This document shows, piece after piece, positions 83-63,501 of a stretch of 64,000 nt of DNA. Below the pieces are notes generated by a model. The model saw only the letters and a list, made by a program, of their open reading frames with translations, was not told the origin of the DNA and did not search any database. The first letter of the stretch is position 1, and every line of letters begins with the position of its first letter. The position numbers were made by a program, and so were the translations under genes. Source of the DNA: a virus; the IMG/VR virus record IMGVR_UViG_3300044998_001357, positions 1-64,000 of that record; one strand, 5' to 3'.

Positions 83-2206
83 ATGGATATACCTAGTTCT
101 TATGAAGAATTAAAAAGGCGATCTCGTGCCCGCAACCTGGCGTTGTCACTGGCGGGCCGGGACATTGGCGACTTGCCGGACGTGGTCAACCCGGCCCGCA
201 AGGCGCGGGCAGCGGGTGACTTCCGCTTCTTCTGCGACAGCTACTTCCCGCTGACGTTCCATCTGCCCTGGTCGCGGGACCACCTGCAGGTCATCGCCCG
301 CATCGAGCAGGCGGTGCTGCGCGGCGGCCTGTTCGCGATGGCCATGCCGCGCGGGTCGGGTAAGAGCACCATCTGCGAGTGTGCCTGCATCTGGGCGGTG
401 CTGTACGGACACCGCGAGTTCGTCTGCCTGATCGGCTCGGACGAAGGTCACGCGATGGACATGCTCGACGCCATCAAGATGGAGTTCGAAGGTAACGACT
501 TGCTCCTGGAGGACTTCCCCGAGGCGTTGTTTCCAATCCAGGCGCTCGACGGCATCGCCAACCGCTGCAACGGGCAACTCTACAAGGGTGAACGGACGCA
601 CATCGGCTGGACCGCCCGCGAGGTGGTGCTGCCGACGCTCAAGCCCGACGGCTGGCTCCAGCGCGAGGATTTGCGGCCGTTCGTGCGGGAGGACGGCACC
701 TCGAAGGCGTCGGGCGCGATCATCAAGGTGGCGGGCATCACCGGCCGAATCCGGGGCATGAAGTACAAGCGGGCCGACGGCCGCACGGTACGGCCAACCT
801 TGGTGGTGCTCGACGACCCGCAGACCGACGAGAGCGCCAAGTCCCCATCGCAGTGCGCCACCCGCGAAGCGATCCTTTCTGGCGCAGTCCTGGGCTTGGC
901 CGGGCCGGGCACGAAGATCTCAGGCATCATGCCCTGCACGGTCATCCGCCCCGGCGACATGGCCGACAATATTCTCGATCGCAATAAGCATCCCGAATGG
1001 AACGGCCAGCGAACCAAGCTCGTCTACGCCTTCCCGACCGACGAGAAGCTCTGGCAGCGCTACGCCGAGGTCCGGGCCGAGAGCCTACGCCAGGGCAACG
1101 GCGGTGAGGAGGCGACTGCGTTCTACCGCGCTAACCGCGCGGCGATGGACGAAGGGGCGGTCGTCGCCTGGCCCGAGCGGTTCAACCACGACGAGTTGTC
1201 GGCGATCCAGCACGCCATGAACCTGCGGCTGCAGGACGAGGCCGCGTTCTTCGCCGAGTACCAGAACGAGCCGCTGCCCGCCGAGACGGCGTCGGACGAC
1301 GAACTGACCGTCGAACAGATCGCCGCCAAGTTCAACCGGATGAAGCGGGGCGAGGTGCCGGTCGGCTGCAATCACGTCACTGCCTTCATTGACGTGCATG
1401 GGAACTTATTGTTCTGGGTGGTTTGCGGCTGGGAGGACGACTTCACCGGCTACGTCCTCGACTATGGCGCGTACCCGGACCAGAAGCGGCCGTACTTCAC
1501 GCTGCGGGATGCCCGACCGACGCTCACTGGGATCCTGCCCAGCGGTGGCGTCGAGGCGGCGATCTACGCGGGGCTGGAGACGCTGACTGGCCAGATGCTC
1601 GGCCGAGCGTGGCGACGCGACGACGGCGCGGACCTGCGGGTCGAACGCTGCCTGGTCGATGCCAACTGGGGTGCCTTGACAAATGTGGTCTACCAGTTCT
1701 GTCGCCAGTCCGCCCATGCGGGGATCGTGCTGCCCAGCCACGGGCGATTCGTCGGCGTATCAAGTAGACCGTTCAGCGAGTATAGCCGGCGGCCCGGCGA
1801 CCGGGTCGGCTCTAACTGGCGGATGCCGAACGTGCAGGGCAAGCGGGCCGTGCGGCATGTCCTCTTCGATACCAACTTCTGGAAGTCGTTTGTTCATGCC
1901 CGCCTAGCCGTGCCGATGGGACAGCGCGGCTGCCTGTCCCTCTTTGGCGACAAGCCCGAGACGCACCGTCTTTTCGCGGAACACATGACCGCCGAATACC
2001 GAGTTCGTGCCGAATCTCGCGGCCGCACGGTAGACGAGTGGAAGCAGCGACCCGAACGCAGCGACAATCACTGGCTGGACTGCCTGGTTGGGGCCGCTGT
2101 GGCCGCGTCGATCCAGGGAGCAACTCTCCTTGGCATCAGCGATCGCGAGCCGACGAAGAAGGCGCGGGTCAGCTTCGCCGAGCTTCAGCGGAGGAATCGG
2201 CGATGA
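83..2206 (+). CDS. terL: Phage terminase large subunit (ATPase-nuclease)
   Basis: Motor that cuts concatemeric phage DNA and pumps it into the prohead. The 707-residue protein has a P-loop near residues 90-100 (PRGSGKST), a Walker B-like stretch near 240 (LVVLDDPQ), and a C-terminal RNase H-fold nuclease half with an acidic motif near 433 (AFIDVHG) and a late conserved NHWLDCLVGAA segment near 661. The overall look is of the lambda gpA-like group. The start follows a weak ribosome site; no small terminase subunit is seen, so it probably lies upstream of the window. The stop overlaps the start of the next gene, so the two are translationally coupled. Confidence 0.93.
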   Translation: MDIPSSYEELKRRSRARNLALSLAGRDIGDLPDVVNPARKARAAGDFRFFCDSYFPLTFHLPWSRDHLQVIARIEQAVLRGGLFAMAMPRGSGKSTICECACIWAVLYGHREFVCLIGSDEGHAMDMLDAIKMEFEGNDLLLEDFPEALFPIQALDGIANRCNGQLYKGERTHIGWTAREVVLPTLKPDGWLQREDLRPFVREDGTSKASGAIIKVAGITGRIRGMKYKRADGRTVRPTLVVLDDPQTDESAKSPSQCATREAILSGAVLGLAGPGTKISGIMPCTVIRPGDMADNILDRNKHPEWNGQRTKLVYAFPTDEKLWQRYAEVRAESLRQGNGGEEATAFYRANRAAMDEGAVVAWPERFNHDELSAIQHAMNLRLQDEAAFFAEYQNEPLPAETASDDELTVEQIAAKFNRMKRGEVPVGCNHVTAFIDVHGNLLFWVVCGWEDDFTGYVLDYGAYPDQKRPYFTLRDARPTLTGILPSGGVEAAIYAGLETLTGQMLGRAWRRDDGADLRVERCLVDANWGALTNVVYQFCRQSAHAGIVLPSHGRFVGVSSRPFSEYSRRPGDRVGSNWRMPNVQGKRAVRHVLFDTNFWKSFVHARLAVPMGQRGCLSLFGDKPETHRLFAEHMTAEYRVRAESRGRTVDEWKQRPERSDNHWLDCLVGAAVAASIQGATLLGISDREPTKKARVSFAELQRRNRR

Positions 2207-2376
2207 GCGCGCCTTCCGCGACCCCGAACGACAGGCCGGGCCTGGTATGTCGTCGGTGCGGCTGCCGTCATTTTCGCGTCATCTATACTCGGCACAGGGC
2301 TACCGGCATTCTTCGGCGCAGAGAGTGCCGTCACTGCGGACTGCGCATCACCACCTGGGAGCGTCCCTTGCGGTAA
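2203..2376 (+). CDS. Small zinc-ribbon protein, NrdR-like
   Basis: A 57-residue protein starting inside the terL stop (ATGA overlap). It has two CxxC knuckles (CRRCGC and CRHCGL) separated by an arginine-rich loop and followed by TTWER, which closely resembles the N-terminal zinc ribbon of the repressor NrdR, without the ATP-cone domain. It may bind DNA, possibly near the repeat array that starts at its stop codon, or act in packaging. Function is inferred only from the ribbon. Confidence 0.75.
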   Translation: MSAPSATPNDRPGLVCRRCGCRHFRVIYTRHRATGILRRRECRHCGLRITTWERPLR

Positions 2377-2378
2377 CC

Positions 2379-2672
2379 TGTTCGGTAACTGTTCGGTAAC
2401 CTGTTCGGTAACTGTTTCGCAACTGTTTCACGCCTGTTTCACAACTGTTTCGCAGCTGTTCGGTAACTGTTCGGTAACTGTTCGGTAACTGTTCGGTAAC
2501 TGTTCGGTAACTGTTCGGTAACTGTTCGGTAACTGTTTCGCAACTGTTTCGCAACTGTTTCACAGCTGTTTCACAGCTGTTTCACAGCTGTTCGGTAACC
2601 TGTTCGGTAACCTGTTCGGTAACCTGTTCGGTAACCTGTTCGGTAACCTGTTCGGTAACCTGTTTCGCAACC
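2379..2672 (+). repeat. 26-unit tandem array, 11/12-bp units
   Basis: Uninterrupted direct repeats between the terminase block and the portal block. Two main unit types occur: TGTTCGGTAAC and TGTTTCGCAAC/TGTTTCACAGC; some carry an extra C, giving a 12-bp period (last seven units and one early unit). Each TGTTCGGTAAC unit contains GTT-N4-AAC, a short dyad. The array begins at the stop codon of the zinc-ribbon gene and ends in a degenerate unit at 2673. Open frames through it on the minus strand are a by-product of the period. It could be iteron-like protein-binding sites or a packaging/replication signal. Confidence 0.95.
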
Positions 2673-2710
2673 TGTATGGTCTATTAGTGTAACGCGTGCA
2701 TTGATACTCC

Positions 2711-2740
2711 TTTATTGCGTATCACATCATCTGATATACT
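2711..2740 (+). promoter_or_regulatory. Possible promoter for the head gene block
   Basis: A good -10 hexamer (TATACT, 2735-2740) lies upstream of the small gene at 2759; the best -35 at suitable spacing is TTTATT, which is weak. It is the only obvious promoter after the repeat array. Confidence 0.3.
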
Positions 2741-2758
2741 CTGGCATAGGAGAATTCT

Positions 2759-2956
2759 ATGCCGGACGAAATCAACGACGCCATCGAACAGAACGCGAAG
2801 GGACCGGCCAAGGCGTCGGGCGACGCCGGCTCGGTTGAGCAGCACAAGCTTTCCGAGCAGATCGAGGCCGACCGCTACCTTGCGTCCAAGGAAGCCGCCA
2901 AGCAGCCGCGTCGCGGCCTGCGCTTCAACAAGCTCGTACCGCCGGGGGCCGACTGA
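2759..2956 (+). CDS. Small phage protein between terminase and portal
   Basis: 65 residues, hydrophilic, start preceded by a good AGGAGA site. It sits where lambda-like phages often have a small head-tail joining gene (gpW position), but I see no gpW signature. The C-terminal half is basic (RRGLRF). Its stop abuts the portal ATG directly, so it is in the head operon. Function unknown; a structural or joining role is inferred from position. Confidence 0.7.
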   Translation: MPDEINDAIEQNAKGPAKASGDAGSVEQHKLSEQIEADRYLASKEAAKQPRRGLRFNKLVPPGAD

Positions 2957-4405
2957 ATGTTTCGCTGGCTGGCCAACCTCTGGAGCACTACGCCGCCGCG
3001 ACCGGGTCGTAGCCGGGTCGTCCGCGTCGTGCGCGGCCGCTACGACGCGGCCGTGACCACCGACGACAACCGCCGCCACTGGGCCAACGCCGACGGCCTG
3101 TCGGCCAACCAGGCTAACAGCGTCGAGGTGCGCCGCGTCCTGCGCAATCGCGCCCGCTACGAGGTCGCCAACAACAGCTACGCCAAGGGCATCGTCCTCA
3201 CACTGGCCAACGACGTGGTCGGGACCGGCCCTCGCCTGCAACTCCTCACCGAGGACTCGAAGGCCAACACCCGCATCGAGCGAGAGTTCACGGCCTGGTC
3301 CAAAGCGATAAGCCTGCCCGAGAAGCTGCGCACCATGCGCATGGCTCGGGCCACCGACGGCGAGGCCTTTGCGGTCTTGACCAGCAACCCGCGACTACCG
3401 ACGCCGGTGCAACTCGACCTGCGGCTAATCGAGGCCGACCAGGTGGCCACGCCGAGCTTTTCCGCCTGGGAGAGGGCTGGAGTCGATGGGATCGTCTTCG
3501 ACGCGGCGGGCAACCCGGTTGAGTACCATGTCCTCAAGGACCACCCAGGGGACGGCTACTGGAATGGGCGCGAGTACGATCGAGTGCCCGCCTCGGCGGT
3601 GCTGCACTGGTTTCGTTGCGACCGGCCGGGCCAGGCGCGGGGTATTCCGGACATCACCCCGGCCCTGCCGCTGTTCGCCCAACTGCGGCGCTTCACTCTG
3701 GCCGTGATCGCCGCCGCCGAGACGGCCGCCGACTTCGCCGGTATCCTCTACACCGACGCGCCCGCCAGCGGGGAGGCCGACGCCGCCGAGCCGTTCGAGC
3801 CGATCGAGTTGGAGAAGCGGGCGCTGGTCACCATGCCCGGCGGCTGGAAGATGAGCCAGCTGCAAGCGGAGCAACCGGCTACCACCTATGCCGAGTTCAA
3901 GCACGAGATCCTCAACGAGATCGCCCGCTGTCTCAACATGCCGTTCAACGTCGCGGCGTGCAACAGCAGCGGCTACAACTACGCGTCCGGTCGGCTCGAC
4001 CATCAGACCTACTTCAAGGCGATTCGCGTCGAGCAGGCCCACCTCGAGGCCGTTGTTCTCGACCGCATCCTCGCGGCCTGGTTCGACGAGGCGGCGCTGA
4101 TCCCCGGCTTACTGCCCGTCGGCTTGGGGCCGCTCGCCGGCTGGCCGCACCAGTGGTTCTGGGACGGGCACGAGCACGTCGATCCCGCTAAGGAGGCCGC
4201 CGCCCAGGCGACCCGCCTAGCCAACCTGACCACCACGCTCGCCGACGAGTACGCCCGCCGTGGCCTCGACTGGGAGGCCCAGTTGCGGCAGCGCGCCAAG
4301 GAGATTGCGCTTATGCAGGAGTTGGGCCTGACCCTGGCGCAAGCTCAACCATTCATCGACCATGATGAGGAATTCGACGATGACATCGACACGTCGGACG
4401 ACTGA
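2957..4405 (+). CDS. Phage portal protein, lambda family
   Basis: 482 residues. Forms the dodecameric ring at the portal vertex through which DNA enters and leaves. The N-terminal third has the lambda-type portal pattern (DNRRHWANADGLSANQANS, then RNRARYEVANN and the VVGTGP turn), and the length is normal for the family. The C-terminal tail is acidic (DDDIDTSDD). It starts one base after the previous stop and overlaps the start of the capsid gene by 26 bases. Confidence 0.93.
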   Translation: MFRWLANLWSTTPPRPGRSRVVRVVRGRYDAAVTTDDNRRHWANADGLSANQANSVEVRRVLRNRARYEVANNSYAKGIVLTLANDVVGTGPRLQLLTEDSKANTRIEREFTAWSKAISLPEKLRTMRMARATDGEAFAVLTSNPRLPTPVQLDLRLIEADQVATPSFSAWERAGVDGIVFDAAGNPVEYHVLKDHPGDGYWNGREYDRVPASAVLHWFRCDRPGQARGIPDITPALPLFAQLRRFTLAVIAAAETAADFAGILYTDAPASGEADAAEPFEPIELEKRALVTMPGGWKMSQLQAEQPATTYAEFKHEILNEIARCLNMPFNVAACNSSGYNYASGRLDHQTYFKAIRVEQAHLEAVVLDRILAAWFDEAALIPGLLPVGLGPLAGWPHQWFWDGHEHVDPAKEAAAQATRLANLTTTLADEYARRGLDWEAQLRQRAKEIALMQELGLTLAQAQPFIDHDEEFDDDIDTSDD

Positions 4406-16960: not shown

Positions 16961-17251
16961 ATGGATAAACACATGCAACCAGACAATGTTCAGTTGATTC
17001 GTCCAGCACCAATCAAAATTGATGCTGACAATGCGATAAAAGAACTAAAAGATATTCTATCCAAGCCAATACGTTTTGAGTTGGATGCAGCCAAGACGGT
17101 TGCGCAGGTCGAGCGCCTGGCTGATCGGCTGGAGAGCCAGGCGGTTTCCGCTGCCTGGTGGGCGGGCTGCGGCGCAGGCGGCCTGTCTGTCGGAGGGGTC
17201 GTGTTGATGCTTGCAATGATGGCATCAATACTTGGGAGGGCTAAGCGATGA
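16961..17251 (+). CDS. Small membrane protein, holin candidate
   Basis: 96 residues: a charged helical N-terminus, an amphipathic coil (VAQVERLADRLESQ), one hydrophobic segment near 68-90 (GGLSVGGVVLMLAMMASIL) and a basic end (GRAKR). Size, single membrane span and location after the tail fibre genes fit a holin or spanin-like lysis protein. Its stop overlaps the protease start by four bases. No clear ribosome site. Confidence 0.5.
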   Translation: MDKHMQPDNVQLIRPAPIKIDADNAIKELKDILSKPIRFELDAAKTVAQVERLADRLESQAVSAAWWAGCGAGGLSVGGVVLMLAMMASILGRAKR

Positions 17252-18321
17252 GACGAGCTCTTATGTGTCTGTTGGCTGTGACGCTTTTGGTTGTAGGCAC
17301 TGGAAGCGCCACTACGCATATGTTAGGCCCTGCCAAGGCGCAGGCCTGCGAGGCCAAAATTAATGCGCCTGCGCGCATCCTAGAGCACAGGCTGTTTGTG
17401 GCCAGCCCTGAGTGCAAAACAGAAGGCGCGGTTTATCTGTGGGACGTGTCCCCAGAGGATGTAGCCGACACGCTAATCGAGGGGGACCGGCTCATTATGG
17501 CCGCTCCGCCGGGCACGTATAAAATACGCTTAACTGTGCTTACCATTAAAGACGGCAAACTGCAACGACCTCAAGTATGCCGTCATGTGGTGGTCGTCGA
17601 GCGATCGGGCCAGGCTCCTCCGGTGACGCCACCCGGTTCTGGTCCTGGCCCGGGTACACCCAAGCCGCCCGAGGGAGGGGCGAAGCCGAACCCCGCTAAG
17701 GCGTTGGGCCGCATTCAATTTGGCAATGCCGGCTGCACGGCAACGCCGATCTGGCCGCCTCGCGCCGACGGCCGATGGGACATCATCACCGCCGCACACT
17801 GCATGCAGGGCGTTGGGTCGCGGGGAACATTCACGACCCAGGATGGACGACGCATACCTGTGCGAGTGGTGGTCCACGAGCGCGGCTCCGACCTGGCTTG
17901 GCTGGTCACAGAGTCGCCGGTGGAGTCGCTGGATTACGCGGTGTTGGCCAAGCGGATGCCGGAGCCTGGGGCCAAGGTGTGGCACGCAGGTTATGGCGTG
18001 GATCGGCCTGGCAACCGCGAAGAGGGCGAATTAATCAACGCTGAAGCAGGACAATATCAAGCTACGTACATGATCAGCGTGTCGTCAGGCGATTCAGGCG
18101 GAGGTATATTCAGCGATGCCACCGGCGAATGGCTAGGTGCTGTCTGCTGCACACGCGCTAAGGGGGTCCGGGCGACCGTCTGGGCCGGTCATGCTCTCCG
18201 CGCTGCGGCCCTGCGGCCAGGCGCAAATACAGAAGCACAGCTGCTAGATAAATATATAATTCCGCGCGGGGCCGAACACCCTATCCTCATTGAGGATACG
18301 GCGGCGCGTCCGGCGAAATAA
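17248..18321 (+). CDS. Secreted trypsin-like serine protease
   Basis: 357 residues with a signal peptide (RRALMCLLAVTLLVVGTGSA), an N-terminal beta domain, a proline-rich linker (about residues 120-150) and a chymotrypsin-fold domain. The triad is visible: His in TAAHCM (about 181), Asp in SDLAWLV (about 212), Ser in SSGDSGGG (about 281). Coupled to the holin candidate. It may act in lysis, on host surface protein (planctomycete envelopes are protein-rich), or in virion maturation outside the cytoplasm. Confidence 0.82.
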   Translation: MRRALMCLLAVTLLVVGTGSATTHMLGPAKAQACEAKINAPARILEHRLFVASPECKTEGAVYLWDVSPEDVADTLIEGDRLIMAAPPGTYKIRLTVLTIKDGKLQRPQVCRHVVVVERSGQAPPVTPPGSGPGPGTPKPPEGGAKPNPAKALGRIQFGNAGCTATPIWPPRADGRWDIITAAHCMQGVGSRGTFTTQDGRRIPVRVVVHERGSDLAWLVTESPVESLDYAVLAKRMPEPGAKVWHAGYGVDRPGNREEGELINAEAGQYQATYMISVSSGDSGGGIFSDATGEWLGAVCCTRAKGVRATVWAGHALRAAALRPGANTEAQLLDKYIIPRGAEHPILIEDTAARPAK

Positions 18322-54155: not shown

Positions 54156-54733
54156 GAATTCTGTGGCAGAAGTGGATTGACCCCATTGCGCCGCTGGTTA
54201 CCGGCTCTAAGCAGGACAGGGTCGATGAAGAGGGTGATGGCGATTCTTCGGTTATGGACCACGCCAGGGGAATACATTTTGGGCCTGGAATCATTGGTCC
54301 TCTCGGAATTGTGCCGCTTCACGAGAGCATCCTACCTAGCCGTCTTTACAACTTCTGGATGGCCAACTGCGACTTTGACCTTTCGGCTCGGGTCGTTGAA
54401 CTACTTGAGTGTGTGCGTGGTGTCGAGACGCTAGACATCTTTACTCGCTACCGTTTTCGGGTGGCGATTGGAAAGGTGTTCGACGAACACCTTGTGAAAC
54501 AAGAGATTGAAAAAATTCTTACCGGGCAAAGGGTTCTTCCCGGCAAGATTGATTTTTTGCGTTCGAAATTGCCTGAGGTTTACACGTTCTGGGCAATTCT
54601 GATTAACCATAAATATATCGATTTTGTTGTTGCTGATACCCCCGAAGGCCTCAGGCATCAAGTTGGCGTTAAGAAAGGCCCCGCAGAGGAAATCATTTGG
54701 TGCTGGGATGAGCAAACGAAGAGTAGTGACTGA
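54152..54733 (+). CDS. Unknown 193-residue protein, TTG start
   Basis: TTG overlapping the ThyX stop (TTGA). Mixed protein with FDLSARVVELLECVRGV and a C-terminal strand set. No family recognised. Its end overlaps the sigma-like gene by 26 bases. Confidence 0.6.
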   Translation: MRILWQKWIDPIAPLVTGSKQDRVDEEGDGDSSVMDHARGIHFGPGIIGPLGIVPLHESILPSRLYNFWMANCDFDLSARVVELLECVRGVETLDIFTRYRFRVAIGKVFDEHLVKQEIEKILTGQRVLPGKIDFLRSKLPEVYTFWAILINHKYIDFVVADTPEGLRHQVGVKKGPAEEIIWCWDEQTKSSD

Positions 54734-55247
54734 TGCCGAGTTCAACAAGGCACTCTATGGCGTGCCTGGCGACGAGCAATCGATTCGCGATGCGTCAAAC
54801 AATAGAAATATCCTAAAATCTGTCAGTTCATCCTATCGGAGATTCCTGAGCCAGGATGTTCTTCTGGGATGTGAACTTCACGCTTTATGGCGCACGCTAC
54901 AGTATCATCGCGACGAGTATGGCCAGAAGTTCACAACATCGCTATACCGTTTTGCTCACTGGCAATGCAGGTGCGAGATACGAAAATTGTGCTTTTTTCT
55001 GCAGCAGCGCAACAAGGCCGGCTGTCGTCTACCGGTTCTTATGGTTGAGCGTGATAACTTAGTAGATAATATCAGAGATGCAATTACATGCTTAAAACAC
55101 GAGTGGATGCGCTCAATTATTGTTGATTACTATTTCTTTGGGTATTCATTGCGGCAAATCGCTGTCCGAAACGGTCTTTGCTACGAGGGTACACGCAAGC
55201 GACTGCGATTGGCCGAACGTGAACTAGGAAAAATTTTGGCTGACTGA
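54708..55247 (+). CDS. Sigma factor-like protein
   Basis: 179 residues. Helical region 2-like segment (ALWRTLQYHRDEYGQKFTTS, then YRFAHWQCRCEIRK) and a region 4-like HTH at the end (DYYFFGYSLRQIAVRNGL, YEGTRKRLRLAERELGKIL). Size is that of ECF-type sigma factors. It could direct RNA polymerase to middle or late phage promoters. Confidence 0.65.
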   Translation: MSKRRVVTDAEFNKALYGVPGDEQSIRDASNNRNILKSVSSSYRRFLSQDVLLGCELHALWRTLQYHRDEYGQKFTTSLYRFAHWQCRCEIRKLCFFLQQRNKAGCRLPVLMVERDNLVDNIRDAITCLKHEWMRSIIVDYYFFGYSLRQIAVRNGLCYEGTRKRLRLAERELGKILAD

Positions 55248-55312: not shown

Positions 55313-55615
55313 ATGAAGAGCCTAGATTATGTGGTTGAGTTCGTAAACATGGACCAAAACAAGATTAAAGACACCTTTGAAGCTGTCCGTAAGGTCGTGA
55401 AGGTCGGCCGAATGCTTGCCAAATTGACTATCACCACAACGGTCGATGACGATGCACTGGAACGATTTGAGGCGATTCTGGATGTGATTGAACCCATCGC
55501 CAAGGAACCGGCTATCTGGGAGCTTATCAAGCTCGTGTTGAGCCTGCTCAGTAAGGACAACAATCCGGCGGGGCGTGCTGCTGAACTGACTTATCTTTTG
55601 GAAAAGGCTGATTAA
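55313..55615 (+). CDS. Unknown 100-residue helical protein
   Basis: All-helical with AVRKVVKVGRMLAKL and ILDVIEPIAKEPAIWELI. The stop overlaps the ATG of the secreted protein at 55615. Perhaps a small membrane-associated or chaperone-like protein. Confidence 0.55.
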   Translation: MKSLDYVVEFVNMDQNKIKDTFEAVRKVVKVGRMLAKLTITTTVDDDALERFEAILDVIEPIAKEPAIWELIKLVLSLLSKDNNPAGRAAELTYLLEKAD

Positions 55616-56397
55616 TGAACCGGTTGCTTTTTTTCCTGGCCCTGACCTCGTTGGGGCCGGCTTTTGCTGCCGACTTTGTGATTCCGCAGCAAAAGATTGT
55701 CGGAGCCGAGCAGGTGATTTCGCCGGGTGAACTGGTGACCCTGTCGGTTAGTCCACCCGAGAAAACCCCAGGACTGACTTCTACCAGCTATAAGTGGAAG
55801 ATTCTTGAAGGCACCCAGGAACGCCGCTTTGCGGTGGATGTCAACGGAAACATCTTTTTCGGCGCGGGTATCAAACCACGGACGTTCACGGCGGTGGTGG
55901 CTATTACCCATCTCTTTACCGAACGAACCGGCGACAAGGTGACACGGGCTGCCACCCACACGGAAATTCTCACCGCGACCATTCGGGTGGGCGGCGAACT
56001 TCCGCCGCCGGATGGGGACAAGACCCCAGTGGTGCCCAAGCCCGATACCGATGCCTCCTTCCCTGCGGGAAAGTATCAGCTGGCTCGTTTTGCTTACGAA
56101 GCGGGTATGAAGGTTTCGGCTTCGGGGCGGACCAAAGGTAGGGCTCTGGCGGACTCGTTCAAGAACATCGCCTCGGCGATTGCGGCGGGCGGCCTCAAGG
56201 ATGCGCGAGCGATTTTGAAGCAAACCAAGGATAGTAACGACGCTGCTCTGGGCGACCAGGTCTCTGCCTGGGAATCGTTTAGTGATGCCCTGGAAGAAAA
56301 GCTGTTTACTCTTTACCAGTCGGGTTCGTTGCGCTCGGCTGCGGATTTTGCCACCGCCTGGAATGAACTTGCCCAGGGTTTGGAGAAAGTGAAGTGA
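55615..56397 (+). CDS. Secreted protein with Ig-like domain, unknown
   Basis: 260 residues: signal peptide (RLLFFLALTSLGPAFAA), a beta-sandwich-like part (30-125, ISPGELVTLSVSPPEK), a PPPDGDKTPVVPKP linker, then a helical domain. Style of planctomycete secreted proteins. Its stop overlaps the GTG of the protease at 56394. Confidence 0.65.
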   Translation: MNRLLFFLALTSLGPAFAADFVIPQQKIVGAEQVISPGELVTLSVSPPEKTPGLTSTSYKWKILEGTQERRFAVDVNGNIFFGAGIKPRTFTAVVAITHLFTERTGDKVTRAATHTEILTATIRVGGELPPPDGDKTPVVPKPDTDASFPAGKYQLARFAYEAGMKVSASGRTKGRALADSFKNIASAIAAGGLKDARAILKQTKDSNDAALGDQVSAWESFSDALEEKLFTLYQSGSLRSAADFATAWNELAQGLEKVK

Positions 56398-57377
56398 GCG
56401 AACTTATCCGCGCTTTTGAAAAAGGGGAACTTTCAGGCTGGTTGGGTGACAAGAACCCCGGACTGATTCGTTCGGAGTTCCGACTTCTGAGTCAGTCGGG
56501 ATATCTCAGTACGTTTGCGATTAGCGGCCGAGAAAAACGCGCCCAGAACGCGGGCCGCAAAACCATGCTGTACCTACTGGCCCGGAAGGTGCTTGGCAAG
56601 GACATTCCGCTTTATCGCCAGGAGATTGGCGACTGCGCGAGCTTTGGCGGAAAAAACGCTATCGAACTGTTGCAGTGCTCCCAGATTGCGGTGCAGAAGC
56701 AAGAAATTCGCTGGCGACCCGTCTTTCCGCCCTACACCTACGGAGCCAGTCGGGTCTACGTCGGTCGTGGTCGATTGCCACGCAAACCAGACGGTTCCTG
56801 GGGCGATGGTTCGACGGGGGCCTGGATTGCCCAGTCGTTTCTTCGCTACGGCTGCCTGTTTGCCGACGAGGCGGGTGTACCGGCCTACAGCGGCCGGGTG
56901 GCGACCGCGTTTGGCGACAGCGACCCCAGAAACGACCTGGATAAATGGCTTCCCACCGCCAAGGCCTACCTGACCGGTGCGGCGGCACTGGTTCGTACCT
57001 GGAAGGAACTGGTCGATGCTATTAGTAATGGCTATCCAGTCTTTTGTGGGTCTATGGTCGGTTTTGAGTGGCAGCCGCGCCGCGATGGGTTTCACTACCG
57101 TGGGGAAAAGTGGGCTCATCTGATGTGCTTTACCGGGGTCTGTGACGACCCCAGTAACCCCTATGCCATCCTGCAAAACAGCTGGGGGGATGTCCACGGC
57201 CGACTCAAAGATTTTGACGACGGACACCTGTTGCCACCAGGCAGTCTACGCATCCGCCGTGCGGATGCCGAGGCGATTCTGGCCGCTCGAGACAGCTATG
57301 CGGTCAGTCAGTTTCGTGGTTTTCCAGACCAGTCTCAAGAAATTCAGCGTCATATGTTTGACTTGATTGGGAAATAA
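56394..57377 (+). CDS. Papain-fold (C1-like) cysteine protease
   Basis: 327 residues, GTG start overlapping the previous stop. Catalytic Cys in QEIGDCASFGG (about 80), His in KWAHLMCFTGV (about 242) and Asn in ILQNSWGD (about 262) give the C1 triad order. No signal peptide is evident at its start, unlike its neighbours. Planctomycete C1-like proteases have similar spacing. It may process the neighbouring secreted proteins or attack host surface proteins. Confidence 0.8.
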   Translation: MSELIRAFEKGELSGWLGDKNPGLIRSEFRLLSQSGYLSTFAISGREKRAQNAGRKTMLYLLARKVLGKDIPLYRQEIGDCASFGGKNAIELLQCSQIAVQKQEIRWRPVFPPYTYGASRVYVGRGRLPRKPDGSWGDGSTGAWIAQSFLRYGCLFADEAGVPAYSGRVATAFGDSDPRNDLDKWLPTAKAYLTGAAALVRTWKELVDAISNGYPVFCGSMVGFEWQPRRDGFHYRGEKWAHLMCFTGVCDDPSNPYAILQNSWGDVHGRLKDFDDGHLLPPGSLRIRRADAEAILAARDSYAVSQFRGFPDQSQEIQRHMFDLIGK

Positions 57378-57392
57378 CTTTAAGGATTTGAC

Positions 57393-59021
57393 ATGTATCG
57401 ACTCATTTTAGTCTATCTGGTGTTGGCCTTTAGCTTCCCCTTGTTCGCCGCTCGTTCGGATGATGAGGAGTTGTCTGGAGATGTGCCGCCCAGTGCGGAG
57501 ACCGAACTGTACGCCGCACTGCGACACAAATACTCCGGGCGATTTGAGGCAGAAGACCTTAACCATATCTATTACTTTACGACCTATGCCATTCCAGAGA
57601 AGTGGAATCTCAATGGCGAAGAGGTCCAACTACGTCAACAGGCAGATTACGCTCTGTCGTTTGTGTTGAATAGCTGTGCCTCTCATAAGTCTGAGGGGCA
57701 TATTGAGAAGCCACGACGCGTCAATGGAAGCAAAACACTCTGGTGGGTTGATATCCGGGATTATGGCTGGTCTACGGAGGACATGAATACCATCTTCCGG
57801 ATTCAACCTTACTTTTTAGCTCCGCTGGTTACCTCGAAAGAAAACGCGATTATCTTTCGAGCGGACTGGTTTATCGTTAATGCGATGGATAGCACCAAGC
57901 AGGAAGACCGGGGCATCAAGGATATCGCATATTTTATCTTGCTCTACGGCAAGGGGAATGAGCCCAAGAACGCCGAAGAGTTTCGCAAACGCTGGAATGT
58001 GGACCTGAGGACGATTCGGGCACAGAAGCTGGAGACGGGTACGATTGTGGATTCGGGCGAGTCGGGCGTTTCGCAGCACACCCGACAACTGCGGCGAGGT
58101 CGCACGATTACCGGGTACTACTGGGAGACCCGGGACGTAAAATCTCATGACGCCGACCGGGACAAGGTCAAAGCGCGTGATTTCGTCGAGGAGATTTCCG
58201 CTGAACAATTTGATGCAGGTGAGTACATCGTCAGTCACAAAAACGGGCTGCAGGTCTATCTGCTCAGTGCCGGTGTTAACGAAGATTTCAAGGTTGTGAA
58301 TTTTGCCGACCCCACGCTGGTGGTCGACCGCCAGGACCGCCACGACCCCCGCGTGCGAACAGCTAAGGGGTGCATCATTTGCCACTCCATGGGAATTATC
58401 CCCTACACCAACACGGTACGCGACCTGTTTCGTTCCGGGATTGACCTCAAGGTCAAGAACAAAGACCTTGCTCGTGCTCTCAAGGCGTTTTACCTGAAGC
58501 ATGACGGCAGCGAGGTCGAGGACGATAACCGGATTTACGAGCGTGCCGTCAAGCAGGTCAACGGCCTGGACCCCCAGAGCAACGCCAAGGCCTACCAGCT
58601 GGTCTACGACTGGTACTGGAACAATAAGGTCACCCTTGAGCAGGCGGCACGAGAATGGGGTATGGAAACCGAGATGTTCCGCCAACAAATCAAAGGTACA
58701 ACCGGTGGTCGATTAAGCTTGCTATACAAGAACAAACCCATGCCTCGCGAAATTTGGGATGCTGTTCAGACGGGCGGATATATCCAGTCCGGCCTATTGA
58801 TTCGGCGTATCGCATCACCTTTCTCGGTTCCGACTGTTTCGGTTCCGCTTGCGGAAGTCGTCACAAAGACCAATTTGATTGATGGAAAAAAGGTACTGGC
58901 CGAACTAGACCCTGGGGCGAAGGTAGAAATTCTAAAAACATATGACGATGAATGGTTTTATGCCCGTTCTGGTTCTGTCGAAGGGTATATTCTTCGCGCA
59001 AATGTGAAGGAGCTAAAGTGA
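57393..59021 (+). CDS. Secreted haem-binding protein with SH3 domain
   Basis: 542 residues: signal peptide (RLILVYLVLAFSFPLFAA), a long mixed region, one c-type haem site (GCIICHSMG, about 326-332), a planctomycete-type segment around NGLDPQSNAKAYQLVYD, and a C-terminal bacterial SH3 domain (VLAELDPGAKVEILKTY, YILRANVKEL). The haem Cys attachment would need the host cytochrome maturation system outside the cytoplasm. Confidence 0.72.
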   Translation: MYRLILVYLVLAFSFPLFAARSDDEELSGDVPPSAETELYAALRHKYSGRFEAEDLNHIYYFTTYAIPEKWNLNGEEVQLRQQADYALSFVLNSCASHKSEGHIEKPRRVNGSKTLWWVDIRDYGWSTEDMNTIFRIQPYFLAPLVTSKENAIIFRADWFIVNAMDSTKQEDRGIKDIAYFILLYGKGNEPKNAEEFRKRWNVDLRTIRAQKLETGTIVDSGESGVSQHTRQLRRGRTITGYYWETRDVKSHDADRDKVKARDFVEEISAEQFDAGEYIVSHKNGLQVYLLSAGVNEDFKVVNFADPTLVVDRQDRHDPRVRTAKGCIICHSMGIIPYTNTVRDLFRSGIDLKVKNKDLARALKAFYLKHDGSEVEDDNRIYERAVKQVNGLDPQSNAKAYQLVYDWYWNNKVTLEQAAREWGMETEMFRQQIKGTTGGRLSLLYKNKPMPREIWDAVQTGGYIQSGLLIRRIASPFSVPTVSVPLAEVVTKTNLIDGKKVLAELDPGAKVEILKTYDDEWFYARSGSVEGYILRANVKELK

Positions 59022-59704
59022 AATCGGTCAATCGACTTGTGTTATTTGCGTTTGTTTTGTGTGCCACAGTACTGGTGGCACCTGGGGTGTGGGCTAGTTA
59101 TCCTCTGGTTACCCACAGTGCTGTGGTACAACAGGTTCAGCCGATTGTGATTGGGGTGCCGCTTGCGCCGGATTATTACTACTCGGTTGGCGATGGGCTT
59201 TATGCCGAGGAAAGAGAGCGTCGGATTGCCGAGGCGGTTATTCGGCGGTTTGGTCAGGAGTATCAGGTTGTCTCTCCCGGAGCAAAATCTGGGATGGGCT
59301 CCAAAGCCAAGGCCAAGGCCAAGGCCAAGGTAAATTCCGCTCCTGCCCCCTCGCCTCTAAACCGTGATTCGTTCCGACTGGTGGGGGTGATGCCTGTGGC
59401 GAAACAGTCGTTGCCGCCTCCTGCTCGTGATTCTGAAGATGTTGCTGCCATCAATCAAAAAGTGCAGCAGCTTTTTGAAGCCAGTTGCCTGAAATGCCAC
59501 AAGCCGGGCGCTTCCAAGCCTGGTAATATACAGATTTTTACATCTGAGCGAGAGTTGTTTTTTGACTCTGACCCGAAAAAAGAGTCACTTAGGCGTTTGC
59601 GGGTGTATGAATCTGTAGAGAGTGGCGATATGCCACGGGGAGCTCCGCCCTGGACCCCCCAAGAGCGAGCCATTTTGAAGCAATGGTACGAGATGTCCAA
59701 GTAA
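59018..59704 (+). CDS. Secreted c-type cytochrome-like protein
   Basis: 228 residues, GTG overlapping the previous stop. Signal peptide (LVLFAFVLCATVLVAPGVWA), a Lys/Ala repeat (KAKAKAKAK, encoded by AAGGCC repeats at 59303-59330), then a mono-haem domain with CLKCHKPG (about 157-161) and the late methionine in SGDMPRGAPP as likely axial ligand. Planctomycete style. Confidence 0.78.
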   Translation: MKSVNRLVLFAFVLCATVLVAPGVWASYPLVTHSAVVQQVQPIVIGVPLAPDYYYSVGDGLYAEERERRIAEAVIRRFGQEYQVVSPGAKSGMGSKAKAKAKAKVNSAPAPSPLNRDSFRLVGVMPVAKQSLPPPARDSEDVAAINQKVQQLFEASCLKCHKPGASKPGNIQIFTSERELFFDSDPKKESLRRLRVYESVESGDMPRGAPPWTPQERAILKQWYEMSK

Positions 59705-59710
59705 TGGAGA

Positions 59711-60055
59711 TTGATGATGATGAAGTATGTGATGATTTTTCTGGCTCTGATTTGCATTGCGGCCGCTCCGGTGTTTGCCGGCTGCCCCACCGCGACGGTT
59801 TCAGCGCCTGTTGTGACGACTCAAATTGTGGCAACCCCACTGGTGGCTGTGGCGACCCCTGTGGTCGAGCTACGCCAGACCCAGACGTTTATTCCGGTGG
59901 TTACACAGCAAAAGGTTGTGCAACAGGAAGTGGTTGTCAAGCAAAATGTCGTGCAGCAAAAGGTTGTACAGCAAAAGGTTGTACAGCAAAAGGTTGTACA
60001 GCAAAAGGTGGCGCAGCAGAAGCGTAGGCTTGCGTTGCGGGCTCGCGGCCACTAA
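59711..60055 (+). CDS. Secreted protein with VVQQK repeats
   Basis: 114 residues: signal peptide (YVMIFLALICIAAAPVFA), a Val/Thr/Pro region and tandem VVQQK units encoded by 15-bp repeats, ending RRLALRARGH. Last gene of the secreted-protein operon; terminator follows. Confidence 0.6.
   Translation: MMMMKYVMIFLALICIAAAPVFAGCPTATVSAPVVTTQIVATPLVAVATPVVELRQTQTFIPVVTQQKVVQQEVVVKQNVVQQKVVQQKVVQQKVVQQKVAQQKRRLALRARGH
59948..60022 (+). repeat. 15-bp coding repeat (VVQQK)
   Basis: Three perfect GTTGTACAGCAAAAG units (59963-60007) flanked by one variant on each side. Confidence 0.9.
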
Positions 60056-60082: not shown

Positions 60083-60114
60083 ACGCCACGGAAAAACTCC
60101 GTGGCGTTCTTATT
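60083..60114 (+). terminator. Rho-independent terminator
   Basis: ACGCCACGG/CCGTGGCGT, 9-bp stem, 7-base loop, then TCTTATTT. It closes the secreted-protein operon. Confidence 0.8.
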
Positions 60115-60163: not shown

Positions 60164-60739
60164 ATGCAAACCGTTCAACGATTAAATAATCTGTTGTGTC
60201 ACATATCCAATGTGCGAAAGGCATGTTTGATTATTGCTGCACAACTTTTGCGAAGGAACCAGGAACAGCTTGCCATCCGTTTAATACAGGCTTCGCAGTT
60301 CCACGATGTCTCCAAGTTTCAGGGTATGGAGTTTGAGTACTTGAACGACAACCAATGGCCACGACCTGAAAACGACCTTCGGAAAGCTGAATTCGACCGG
60401 GCGGTCAGTCTGCATGTCTACAACAATTCGCATCACCCGGAATACTGGGACGGCATCCATAACATGCCCGAGCTTTCGGTGGCGGAAATGGTCGCGGACT
60501 GGCAGGCACGCTCGTGGGAGCAAAACACCGACCTGGAAGAATGGATCAGAGCAAAAGCCACCAAGAGGTTTGGCTTCTCTGAAAAAGACCCAGTCTTTCA
60601 AGTTATTTTGAAGTACGTTGGTATGCTAAAAGGAGAGATTCCTGATGTGCAAGTGGGACTGGCGATTTCTGAAGCTGGCCCGGCAGGTCGCCTCGTGGAG
60701 CAAAGACCCCTCCACTCAGACCGGTGCGGTAATTGTTGA
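60164..60739 (+). CDS. DUF5662-like HD-type protein
   Basis: 191 residues after AGGAGG. Metal-binding HD pattern: HDVSKF (about 47-52) and NSHHPEYWDG (about 89-98), as in DUF5662/HD-like phage proteins. Likely a metal-dependent phosphohydrolase, perhaps on nucleotides given its operon. Its last 95 bases overlap the deaminase in another frame. Confidence 0.7.
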   Translation: MQTVQRLNNLLCHISNVRKACLIIAAQLLRRNQEQLAIRLIQASQFHDVSKFQGMEFEYLNDNQWPRPENDLRKAEFDRAVSLHVYNNSHHPEYWDGIHNMPELSVAEMVADWQARSWEQNTDLEEWIRAKATKRFGFSEKDPVFQVILKYVGMLKGEIPDVQVGLAISEAGPAGRLVEQRPLHSDRCGNC

Positions 60740-61541
60740 TTCTAGTCGTCGAATTGTCTCGGTGGGCTACAACGGCTTTGCTCGTGGCGTGGACGACACC
60801 CCAGAGCGGTATCTGGAGCGCGAACTTAAGTATCGTCTCATTGTGCATTGTGAACGCAATGCTCTTCTGTTCGCGGACACCCACCGACTTAAGGGCGCGA
60901 CCCTGTACACCTGGCCGTTCATGAGTTGCTCGGTTTGTGCGGGTATGGTCATTCAGTCGGGAATCAGGCGGTGTGTGGCTCCTTTTATCCCCGAGGACAA
61001 GCGTGAGCGTTGGGAGGCGGATATGAAGCTGGCCACCCAGCAGTTCCAGGAGGCGGGGGTGGAGCTCTGTCTGCTTGATGGTCGATTCGAATTTGTTAGT
61101 GACTTCATAGACCACCACAACATGAAGATTGTTGCGAGTTCTGGCCATTTCGACCCCCTTCACGAGGGTCATCTGCGTTACCTAGAGGCGGCCTCACGTC
61201 TGGGGGATTTTCACGTGGTGATTGTCAACAGTGACGCTCAACTTTGTCTAAAGGGTCGTCAACCTTTGCTCAACGAACAACAGCGACTGGAAGTAATTCG
61301 CTCGCTCAAATTCGTCGATGCCGCCGTGCTCTCGGTCGACCAGGACCGCTCGGTCGCGCAGACACTACAAAATATTCGGCCTGCTGTTTTCGCCAATGGT
61401 GGCGATGTGGTTGACGAAAGCCAGTGTCGTGAAGCCATGACCTGCCGATTCCTGGGAATCCAGATGGTTTTTGGTGTGGGAGGTTCCCACAAAATCGCTT
61501 CCTCTAGTGAGCTCCTCGGACGGTTTGTCAAGTCCTCTTGA
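60645..61541 (+). CDS. dCMP deaminase fused to nucleotidyltransferase
   Basis: 298 residues in two domains. Residues 1-150: zinc deaminase with HCERNALLF (the HxE motif) and SCSVCAG (the CxxC pair), giving dUMP from dCMP. Residues 160-298: cytidylyltransferase-like fold with SSGHFDPLHEGHLRYL (HxGH motif) and FANGGDVV, similar to RfaE/TagD-type NTP transferases. Usually these are separate proteins. The second half could activate a sugar or alditol phosphate for the glycosylation genes. Confidence 0.82.
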   Translation: MCKWDWRFLKLARQVASWSKDPSTQTGAVIVDSSRRIVSVGYNGFARGVDDTPERYLERELKYRLIVHCERNALLFADTHRLKGATLYTWPFMSCSVCAGMVIQSGIRRCVAPFIPEDKRERWEADMKLATQQFQEAGVELCLLDGRFEFVSDFIDHHNMKIVASSGHFDPLHEGHLRYLEAASRLGDFHVVIVNSDAQLCLKGRQPLLNEQQRLEVIRSLKFVDAAVLSVDQDRSVAQTLQNIRPAVFANGGDVVDESQCREAMTCRFLGIQMVFGVGGSHKIASSSELLGRFVKSS

Positions 61542-61587
61542 TGGTGTATCTGACTGGGCTGTCTCAAGACTGTTCGGGAGAATGATA

Positions 61588-63501
61588 ATGAGTATTTTTG
61601 AGAAACGTACGGCTTTCAAGCCGTTCGAATACCCAGATATTGTCAAATTCAAGGAGGCTATTAACCATAGCTATTGGTTGGTGAGCGAGTGGACGTTCTT
61701 GTCCGATTTGGATGATTTTCATACCCGGCTCACCCCGGTCGAGCGTTCCGCCGTCAAGAACGCCCTGCTGGCCATTTCGCAGGTGGAAGTGGCCGTCAAG
61801 AAGTTCTGGGGGCGTCTGGGAGACCGAATCCCCAAGCCCGAGTTCGAGCAGGTAGGGGCGACGTTCGCGGAATGTTTTGCCGATGGTACGGAGGTGCTTA
61901 CCCCGACCGGATGGGTAGACCTGGCCGAGGTCGTGGTGGGAGACGAGGTTCTTCAGTTTAACCAGGACGGCTCTTTCTCTTTTGCTCGGGTGACTCATAA
62001 GGTAGACCGCGAGTACACCGGTCCGATACATCGTTTCCACAATAGAAACACAGAAATACTTGTTACTCCTAATCATAGAATGGTTTGCTTTAATAAAGCC
62101 GGCGAGTACATTGTGACCACTGCCGAAAACCTCTCTGTGCGAAACACCAATCTGTTTCTTCCCGAGGCGGGTCGGCTGGTCGGCGATGGCGCTACCGAAC
62201 TGTCGTTCGAAGAACGGTTGCGTGTGGCCATCCAGGCCGATGGTAATCGCCCAACGACGGGCCGGCGACCGCGATTGGGAGATGGGTCCGGGGTTGAATA
62301 CGAAATCCGTATTAGCGAGCCACGCAAGGTCGAGCGACTAGACTGGATTCTTTCCAATCTTCCTGCGATTGGGTCGTCCAAACGACCCATTCCTTCGCAT
62401 CCAGGCATGTTTTGTTACACGATTGGGATTGATGCAGAATACAACTACAAAGAATTTGACTGGGTTACTCTTGTCGGGAAAACAGCAGAGTGGTGCGAGG
62501 ATTTTATTCAAGAACTCGCGGAGTGGGATGGAACACGACCGGCTGGTAAGAAGGTGAAGTATTCCACTACCAATCGGGCAGCCGCCGACGTGGCTCAGAT
62601 GGTTGGGGTCGGAGCGGGTTACCGAGTTCACCTTGGAACCTACACGGATAAGCGCAAGGATGTGTATATCGTCTCTTTCACTTGCAATAGAGAGCGGGTT
62701 AACTTGCCGTCGCTTAAGAGGGAGGTGGTGGACTACTCGGGGTGGGTGCGATGTGTGACGGTTCCTTCAGGTGCCATCATTACCCGGTATAATGACCAGA
62801 CTTTTATTGCCGGCAACTGTGAGGTGCGCCATGCGGATGCTTATTCTCATCTCCTGGAAATTCTGGGCCTGAATACTGACTTTGAGTTATTACTCAAAAT
62901 TCCAGAGATGCAGGGACGGGTGGAATATCTAGGTGAGTCTGTTCGGAGTGGACCCACCAATTCTGATTTCGCTTCTACATTGTCACTCTTCTCTCTTTTT
63001 GTAGAGAATGTGTCGTTATTTGGACAGTTTCTTGTGGTGAAAAGTATCAACAAGCATCGAAACTTGTTGAAAGATATTGACAATGTCATTCAGGCCACTC
63101 AACAGGAAGAGACTATTCACGCTCGGTTTGGGGCGTTTTTGGTCAATCTTATCAAGGCTGAGCACCCCGAGTGGTTTAACGATGATTTTGTCGTCCGTGT
63201 GCGTGAGGCGTGTCTGCGTGCGTATAAGTATGAGCATGCAATCATAAATTGGATTTATTCCGGCGGTGACCTTCCCTACCTTCCTCGCGAGGACATTTTT
63301 ACGTTCCTGCAGCACCGCTTCAACACCAGCCTGGCGATGATTGGTATCGAACCTCTCTTCGAGGTGGACCAGGCCCGGCTCGATAAAACCTTCTGGTTTG
63401 ATGAGGAAGTCCTGACCGAAACCCGAACCGACTTCTTCCACAAACGACCTGTCTCCTATTCCAAGCACAATAAGCCCGTGAATGCGGAGGATTTGTTCTA
63501 A
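61588..63501 (+). CDS. nrdB: Class I ribonucleotide reductase beta with intein
   Basis: 637-residue precursor; ATG at 61588 (61582 also possible) after GGGAG. Host protein (322 residues after splicing) has RNR-beta features: SEWTFLSDLDDF, then the di-iron/tyrosyl motif E-V-R-H-A-D-A-Y right after the intein, and QQEETIHARFG with the second iron ligands. It generates the radical used by the alpha subunit to reduce ribonucleotides. A 315-residue intein separates TFAE from the iron-binding motif. Confidence 0.88.
   Translation: MSIFEKRTAFKPFEYPDIVKFKEAINHSYWLVSEWTFLSDLDDFHTRLTPVERSAVKNALLAISQVEVAVKKFWGRLGDRIPKPEFEQVGATFAECFADGTEVLTPTGWVDLAEVVVGDEVLQFNQDGSFSFARVTHKVDREYTGPIHRFHNRNTEILVTPNHRMVCFNKAGEYIVTTAENLSVRNTNLFLPEAGRLVGDGATELSFEERLRVAIQADGNRPTTGRRPRLGDGSGVEYEIRISEPRKVERLDWILSNLPAIGSSKRPIPSHPGMFCYTIGIDAEYNYKEFDWVTLVGKTAEWCEDFIQELAEWDGTRPAGKKVKYSTTNRAAADVAQMVGVGAGYRVHLGTYTDKRKDVYIVSFTCNRERVNLPSLKREVVDYSGWVRCVTVPSGAIITRYNDQTFIAGNCEVRHADAYSHLLEILGLNTDFELLLKIPEMQGRVEYLGESVRSGPTNSDFASTLSLFSLFVENVSLFGQFLVVKSINKHRNLLKDIDNVIQATQQEETIHARFGAFLVNLIKAEHPEWFNDDFVVRVREACLRAYKYEHAIINWIYSGGDLPYLPREDIFTFLQHRFNTSLAMIGIEPLFEVDQARLDKTFWFDEEVLTETRTDFFHKRPVSYSKHNKPVNAEDLF
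61873..62817 (+). mobile_element. Intein with LAGLIDADG-like domain in NrdB
   Basis: Starts with Cys (CFADGTEVLTPTGW, block A) and ends TFIAGN before Cys+1. Block B is TPNHRMVCF. The residue before the final Asn is Gly, not the usual His. The centre has two degenerate LAGLIDADG-type segments (LRVAIQADGN and FIQELAEWDGT), so homing activity may be lost. Position is immediately before the iron-ligand motif EVRH. Confidence 0.85.

Follow-up and report, generated by a model that had tools for sequence, protein, structure and literature searches.

The window analysed here is the first 64,000 nucleotides (bases 1–64000) of the IMG/VR virus record IMGVR_UViG_3300044998_001357, which has 148,783 bp. 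At 55313–60055 it carries six tightly coupled plus-strand genes, among them a putative protease and two predicted exported proteins with the haem motif CxxCH, which we call BIG and SMALL. BIG founds a new protein family, and SMALL is of the class I cytochrome c type. A first-pass annotation, made from the sequence alone, had taken the genes for an undescribed extracytoplasmic system, and in line with this the cytochrome-type pair and a protease recur in planctomycete phages and prophages. We give about an even chance to the reading that these genes are a phage-specific late cassette that attacks the envelope of the planctomycete host, probably to lyse the cell or to release particles. The more specific proposal of haem-dependent lysis or release, in which a two-protein c-type cytochrome unit and an interchangeable protease break the envelope or trigger its breakage and replace a wall-hydrolase-centred mechanism, is tentative and well short of an even chance.

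Results

The overlaps, short gaps and closing terminator of the six genes agree with the tightly coupled operon described in the first-pass annotation. The features are as follows.

54624–55247, plus strand: Q-like/sigma-region-4-like transcription regulator directly upstream of the operon and outside the cassette; matches PHROG phrog_79 (anti-termination Q-like, E = 2.6e-5) and other regulator families
55313–55615, plus strand: HEL (gene 1), small helical protein of 100 aa without a signal peptide
55615–56397, plus strand: Ig-like protein (gene 2), predicted exported, with a signal-type N-terminus and a helical C-terminal part
56394–57377, plus strand: putative papain-like cysteine protease (gene 3) without a signal peptide; motifs in the translation
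57393–59021, plus strand: BIG (gene 4), 542 aa, predicted exported, with CIICH at residues 327–331 and a bacterial SH3 domain at about 480–542
59018–59704, plus strand: SMALL (gene 5), 228 aa, predicted exported class-I-type cytochrome c, with CLKCH and then GDMPRG
59711–60055, plus strand: low-complexity VVQQK-repeat protein (gene 6), predicted exported
60083–60107, plus strand: intrinsic terminator ending the operon, with a 10-bp stem (−18.5 kcal/mol, z −5.05) followed by TCTTATTTGA

The ATG of gene 2 (55615) starts within the stop codon of gene 1 (to 55615), the GTG start of gene 3 at 56394 precedes the end of gene 2 at 56397, and 15 nt separate the end of gene 3 (57377) from the start of gene 4 (57393). 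All six gene kinds are as first described, except that SMALL most likely starts at the GTG at 59018, overlapping the BIG stop (59021), rather than at the open reading frame (ORF) start at 58952. Hydrophobic signal-type N-termini are present in genes 2, 4, 5 and 6 (Kyte-Doolittle maxima of 1.9–2.6 at residues 4–7) and absent from genes 1 and 3.

Apart from a weak SH3 match at its C-terminus, BIG is not covered by any family in Pfam, NCBIfam, PHROGs or PADLOC, and it has no credible sequence relative among solved structures. Single-protein searches of viral sequences returned no relatives, and iterated alignment searches were needed to find them: with duplicates merged, these gave 21 genes in 19 viral contigs, the window included. 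They occur in IMG/VR contigs of 18.8 to 343 kb and twice in the 595-kb uncultured phage LR756511.1. An alignment of 47 BIG domains (22 phage-type and 25 cellular) shows both cysteines and the histidine of CxxCH to be invariant throughout (47/47), and 26 columns reach 85% conservation or more in the phage-type and cellular groups alike. As 15-mers coding for CxxCH are no more enriched in the record (11) than in a reversed control (9), it is the conservation of the motif, and not its mere presence, that counts as evidence.

A maximum-likelihood tree of the 47 domains separates phage from cellular BIGs by a branch 1.01 changes per column long, supported at 100/100. The sole chromosomal sequence on the phage side (locus L060; L numbers are our locus labels) stands beside terminase and portal genes. 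The phage BIGs thus form a deep clade of their own, which argues against a recent acquisition from a host, and we rejected the idea of a recently captured host (auxiliary metabolic) gene because the phage copies are not nested among host homologues.

SMALL lies directly 3′ of BIG for 16 of the 21 phage genes. CxxCH followed by a Met-Pro motif is found in 14 aligned phage SMALL proteins besides that of the window, whose translation reads CLKCH with GDMPRG as the Met ligand motif. Class I cytochromes c have the same ligand pattern, and on this basis SMALL was classed as that type. Against the Pfam family Cytochrome_CBB3 (PF13442), the window protein stays below the cut-off of 27 (score 19.5, E = 1.3e-3) and a prophage SMALL (L119) exceeds it (32.0); the SMALL of L023 gives a weak PSCyt1 match. 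Two large phages, LR756511.1 (L002, L005) and 3300014202_001521 (L064, L072), carry two BIG paralogues of different subtypes, of which one has a C39-like protease and no adjacent SMALL and the other has SMALL.

A genome scan and a phylum search located cellular BIG domains in Planctomycetota, in two metagenome-assembled genomes (MAGs) titled Akkermansia and in Hyphomicrobiales. Within Planctomycetota they are present in 12 of 392 sampled genomes, one of which is the prophage case L060. Most cellular homologues have a PSCyt1/CBB3 cytochrome domain preceding BIG in the same chain. A pair that is fused in one lineage and encoded by adjacent separate genes in another is standard evidence of joint function, and the cytochrome-BIG fusions therefore suggest, without proving it, that the two phage haem proteins work together. 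An operon found intact at non-phage chromosomal loci would have pointed to host DNA; the non-phage relatives are deeply divergent, mostly fused and in a separate clade, and the phage-type chromosomal copies adjoin terminase and portal genes in every case where the contig is long enough to show it.

Several cellular relatives have further partners. In a recurrent Planctomycetota neighbourhood (L015, L019, L020, L051, L061 and others), seemingly undescribed, a cytochrome-BIG fusion is encoded beside a secreted DUF4384-like protein and caspase or caspase-FGE proteins. In the planctomycete genome G037 (L049 5279–8134), a Ser/Thr kinase domain, PSCyt1 and BIG share one chain, which is a candidate transmembrane haem-sensor kinase. 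The Neorhizobium homologue has further cytochrome domains and adjoins a ferredoxin reductase family gene.

An AlphaFold2 (AF2) model of window BIG reached a predicted local distance difference test score (pLDDT) of 78.2 and a predicted template modelling score (pTM) of 0.74, and that of a planctomycete fusion reached a pLDDT of 78 and a pTM of 0.74. The fold search with the window model matches mainly SH3 domains, and its C-terminal end is modelled as an SH3 domain resembling those of cell-wall enzymes (Z 10.3, r.m.s.d. 1.4, 63 residues). The planctomycete homologue model has no Foldseek match at E ≤ 1e-3. In a comparison with 192 chains only, its BIG core (model residues 281–474, CxxCH included) matched cytochromes c′-beta weakly, with 7ead (Z 5.3, 96 aligned) and 7s5o (Z 4.7, 115 aligned) as top rows, yet below the noise guidance. 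We treat a relationship of the modelled BIG core to the cytochrome c′-beta fold as a lead. On sequence profiles, membership of BIG in the cytochrome P460 family was rejected: hhalign aligned 15 columns at CxxCH only, with a probability of 1.1 against a 2-sequence profile, and Pfam scans gave no PF16694 match for BIG proteins.

These relatives and fold matches bear on the idea that the phage proteins are a redox or gas sensor with a protease as effector, in which BIG and SMALL would respond to electron flow, NO or O2 in the periplasm by gating the protease or setting when release occurs, and would do no damaging chemistry themselves. Such a sensor would accord with the kinase fusion in G037, with the cellular copies near caspase, DUF4384 and FGE proteins and with cytochrome c′-beta, the sole fold match of note, being a gas-binding family. 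However, only one kinase fusion was found, the phage proteins have neither a signalling domain nor a membrane anchor beyond the signal-type N-terminus, the c′-beta match is weak and the P460 profile comparison did not extend beyond CxxCH. We consider a sensor unlikely.

A further partner of BIG is the protease, which in 15 of the 21 phage cases lies directly upstream of BIG or is parted from it by HEL alone. It is papain-like (C1) in seven (the window, L022, L064, L068, L070, L073 and L077), C39-like in three (L002, L013 and L072), an M10 matrixin in four (L021, L023, L024 and L075) and an S8 subtilase in one (L080). L012 and L069 have a C39-like gene near BIG on the opposite strand. Since unrelated protease families swap at one place, proteolysis itself would seem to be what is needed. 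The papain fold claimed earlier for gene 3 is backed by catalytic motifs in the right order (a putative Cys in IGDCASF, His in KWAHLM and Asn in QNSWG) and by weak similarity to a clearer phage papain-like protein (blastp 1e-6, about 80 residues), but gene 3 has no PF00112 match and reaches no Pfam cut-off, and its phage homologue in L022 scores 16.6 against a cut-off of 20.7. In L070 (4651–6555), a 361-aa intein-like insert splits the papain-like protease precisely at its putative catalytic Cys, which suggests that the site is conserved and that the enzyme would be active only after splicing.

Conservation of the operon in other planctomycete prophages had been proposed as a check, and BIG, mostly together with SMALL and a protease, is indeed present at 21 prophage-like loci as well as in further phages. 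A phage-type BIG search of the family and order of the L060 genome gave matches, phage-type and cellular together, in 43 of 296 genomes at E ≤ 1e-30, and flanks were examined at the 21 phage-type loci. The usual order there is TMCC (a short coiled-coil-like gene), HEL, an S8 or papain-like protease, BIG, SMALL, in some cases a V-rich exported protein, a ParB-like gene, terminase and portal. Protease and SMALL are each present at 18 of the 21 loci, several of the gaps being contig ends, and an EEP endonuclease and/or MogA gene lies on the left at ten. A Pfam scan of 20 proteins from one prophage element identified families for portal, capsid, terminase and head completion, but none of the known wall hydrolases, which leaves the cassette as the obvious release candidate there. 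In L131 (10413–11312), an exported GH16 glycosidase gene is inserted between the papain-like protease and BIG of the prophage cassette. The loci L060 and L114–L133 share a compact element of roughly 20–25 kb (cassette, terminase, portal, capsid and tail genes) in which no integrase was noticed by eye; it could be a domesticated prophage or a gene-transfer-agent-like locus.

Divergence between loci, computed from small numbers and approximate ORF boundaries, was correlated for BIG and the S8 protease (rho 0.74, Mantel p about 0.0005, 14 loci) but not for BIG and terminase (rho −0.04), whereas EEP and terminase diverge together as in vertical descent (rho 0.80, Mantel p about 0.0005, 8 loci). 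This pattern suggests that BIG and the protease travel as a unit, and the cassette appears to be exchanged between elements as a functional unit.

The protease has a direct bearing on host respiration control or auxiliary metabolism, the second role suggested in the first-pass annotation, in which the exported cytochromes would redirect or sustain host electron flow and the protease and Ig-like protein would be unrelated neighbours. A protease neighbour is retained across unrelated families and BIG co-varies with it, and the phage BIG clade is deep and apart from cellular genes, unlike typical auxiliary genes. Set against these points are the His/Met ligand motifs of a class-I-type cytochrome in SMALL, and the additional cytochrome domains and reductase neighbour of the Neorhizobium homologue. 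We see respiration control as distinctly unlikely.

The cassette is often located among late genes. It follows a baseplate wedge gene in L070, L071 and L073, lies between tape measure and tail fibre in L024, comes before terminase, alone or together with portal, in L023 and the prophage loci, and in the window stands below the Q-like regulator. Predicted domains and neighbours suggest wall targeting, namely the SH3b domain on window BIG, a PG_binding_1 domain on the M10 protease of L023 and the GH16 gene in one cassette. With the late-gene position, the wall-binding SH3b and PG-binding domains and the interchangeable proteases, envelope attack fits best of the three roles first suggested.

Lysogenic conversion, the third of these, fits poorly. 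As a conversion or superinfection exclusion system, the cassette would be a prophage-expressed cell-surface trait, and indeed most of its products are predicted to be exported and the chromosomal cassette sits at the element end, beside host genes such as MogA and the EEP endonuclease. However, the cassette also occurs in very large phages (254 to 595 kb) and beside or between late structural genes in L070, L071, L073 and L024. PADLOC models matched none of the six proteins in the window; its subtilase and IetS subtilase-type models do match the prophage S8 protease. On balance we regard this role as very unlikely.

Late structural neighbours could also mean that the proteins are virion components, placed in the tail tip or baseplate and acting at entry. 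Baseplate wedge or tail fibre genes adjoin the cassette in four phages, and Ig-like domains are common in phage tails, but assembly of tail proteins takes place in the cytoplasm, a compartment without attachment of c-type haem, and four of the six window proteins have signal-type N-termini. A virion role is in our judgement most improbable.

Helical and Ig-like genes were matched across phages mainly by position and character, and for the window copies clear homology is limited to the Ig-like protein, which has 38% identity over 250 aa (E = 2e-52) with the same-place protein of phage contig L077; other phages have a different predicted-exported Ig-like protein there. Proteins of HEL-like size and helical character occupy the same place in L005, L022, L064, L068, L070, L073 and the prophage loci, and blastp did not link window HEL to these positional counterparts. 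Hydrophobicity did not support HEL and TMCC as holins, both having only moderate hydrophobic stretches (maximum Kyte-Doolittle 0.7–1.9). Low-complexity predicted-exported proteins stand at the place of gene 6 in several other phages and prophages, and BIG of prophage L060 itself has a VVQQ-repeat tail as its end. L022 has all six gene kinds of the window in shuffled order.

Elsewhere in the record, GC content is about 0.55–0.64 in window positions 1–26000 and record positions 144800–148783, against about 0.53 in the remainder, and there are two terminase/portal sets, at 83–4405 (plus strand) and 133592–140956 (minus strand). The record may combine two phages, or it may be one element with another inserted in it. 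Downstream of the operon, window positions 60645–61541 encode a deoxycytidylate-deaminase domain fused to a cytidylyltransferase-like domain, and 61471–63501 hold a ribonucleotide reductase small-subunit-like ORF with an apparent intein-like insert. After the tail genes of the GC-rich part, at 17248–18318, lies a further phage protease: a predicted exported protein that has both an Ig-like and a trypsin-like peptidase domain (PF13365, 8e-10), without cytochromes.

Discussion

Here, we propose that planctomycete phages and prophages carry a dedicated cassette for attack on the host envelope. In the mechanism that we envisage, SMALL and BIG would be exported, loaded with haem by host machinery in the periplasm and act there as a redox pair, in which SMALL would give electrons to BIG or take them from it. 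In some phages the pair would be held at the cell wall by the SH3b domain of BIG or by the peptidoglycan-binding domain of the protease. It would probably draw electrons from the respiratory chain, and these could serve either to do damage to targets in the envelope or to signal that membrane energy has collapsed, which would set the time of the attack. The protease, whose C1, S8 and M10 versions have no evident signal peptide, would presumably be released late, perhaps aided by HEL, and would cleave envelope proteins at the end of infection.

Several observations weigh against an attack on the envelope. The cassette genes include no muralytic domain, and none of their products shows a clear transmembrane helix of the holin type. 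The cassette is surrounded by nucleotide-metabolism genes rather than structural ones in the window, L021 and L077, and three loci of the C39 clade (L002, L013 and L072) have no adjacent SMALL. The fold match of the BIG core to cytochrome c′-beta is weak, and the role of the haem proteins, like haem attachment and proteolysis, is a prediction. We also know of no precedent for a cytochrome in lysis.

The only phage-borne c-type cytochrome genes met with in the literature searched were the auxiliary genes soxC and soxD, and in the two phage SoxD proteins reported one or both of the cytochrome motifs are missing (PMC8190135), in agreement with the earlier remark that c-type haem proteins are hardly known from phages. 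The open-access literature on phage cytochromes, planctomycete phages and planctomycete gene transfer agents yielded no description of the cassette. To our knowledge, c-type cytochromes that phages encode with their haem motifs intact, and that are conserved as a unit of their own rather than as borrowed host metabolism, have not been described before. Hence, on the strength of these comparisons the kind of system appears to be new, and envelope attack is the function that we propose for it.

If the proteins bind haem and act at release, these phages would leave the cell by periplasmic redox chemistry, for which we know of no counterpart. The planctomycete envelope is unusual, and the cassette offers a handle on how phages lyse these bacteria. 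The cellular cytochrome-BIG-caspase neighbourhoods suggest a wider bacterial theme that joins haem proteins and proteases.

Each part of the cassette resembles a known system in some respects and departs from it in others. Like the PSCyt1 (PF07635) and Cytochrome_CBB3 (PF13442) class-I-type cytochromes, the exported ones of planctomycetes included, SMALL has CxxCH and a later Met-Pro, but it is phage-encoded, forms a separate gene beside BIG and has a variable N-terminal part. The BIG core shows a weak structural match to the cytochrome c′-beta/P460 family (PF16694), whereas BIG is several times larger and has no profile match beyond CxxCH. Phage soxC/soxD likewise place an annotated c-type cytochrome subunit on phage contigs, but they are host-type sulfur metabolism genes, with incomplete SoxD motifs and no protease module (PMC8190135). 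The cellular cytochrome-BIG fusions (for example, WP_227705619.1) share the BIG domain with its invariant CxxCH, have a cytochrome partner in the chain and often have a protease (caspase) near; unlike the phage genes they are fused rather than separate, have caspase, DUF4384 and FGE neighbours and form a separate clade. Phage lysis cassettes, such as Q-S-R-Rz of lambda, have in common with the cassette a late position below a Q-like regulator or beside terminase and portal, a hydrolase without a signal peptide, and wall-binding domains. In the planctomycete phages, however, the hydrolase is a protease of variable family, there is no clear holin, and two exported haem-motif proteins are added.

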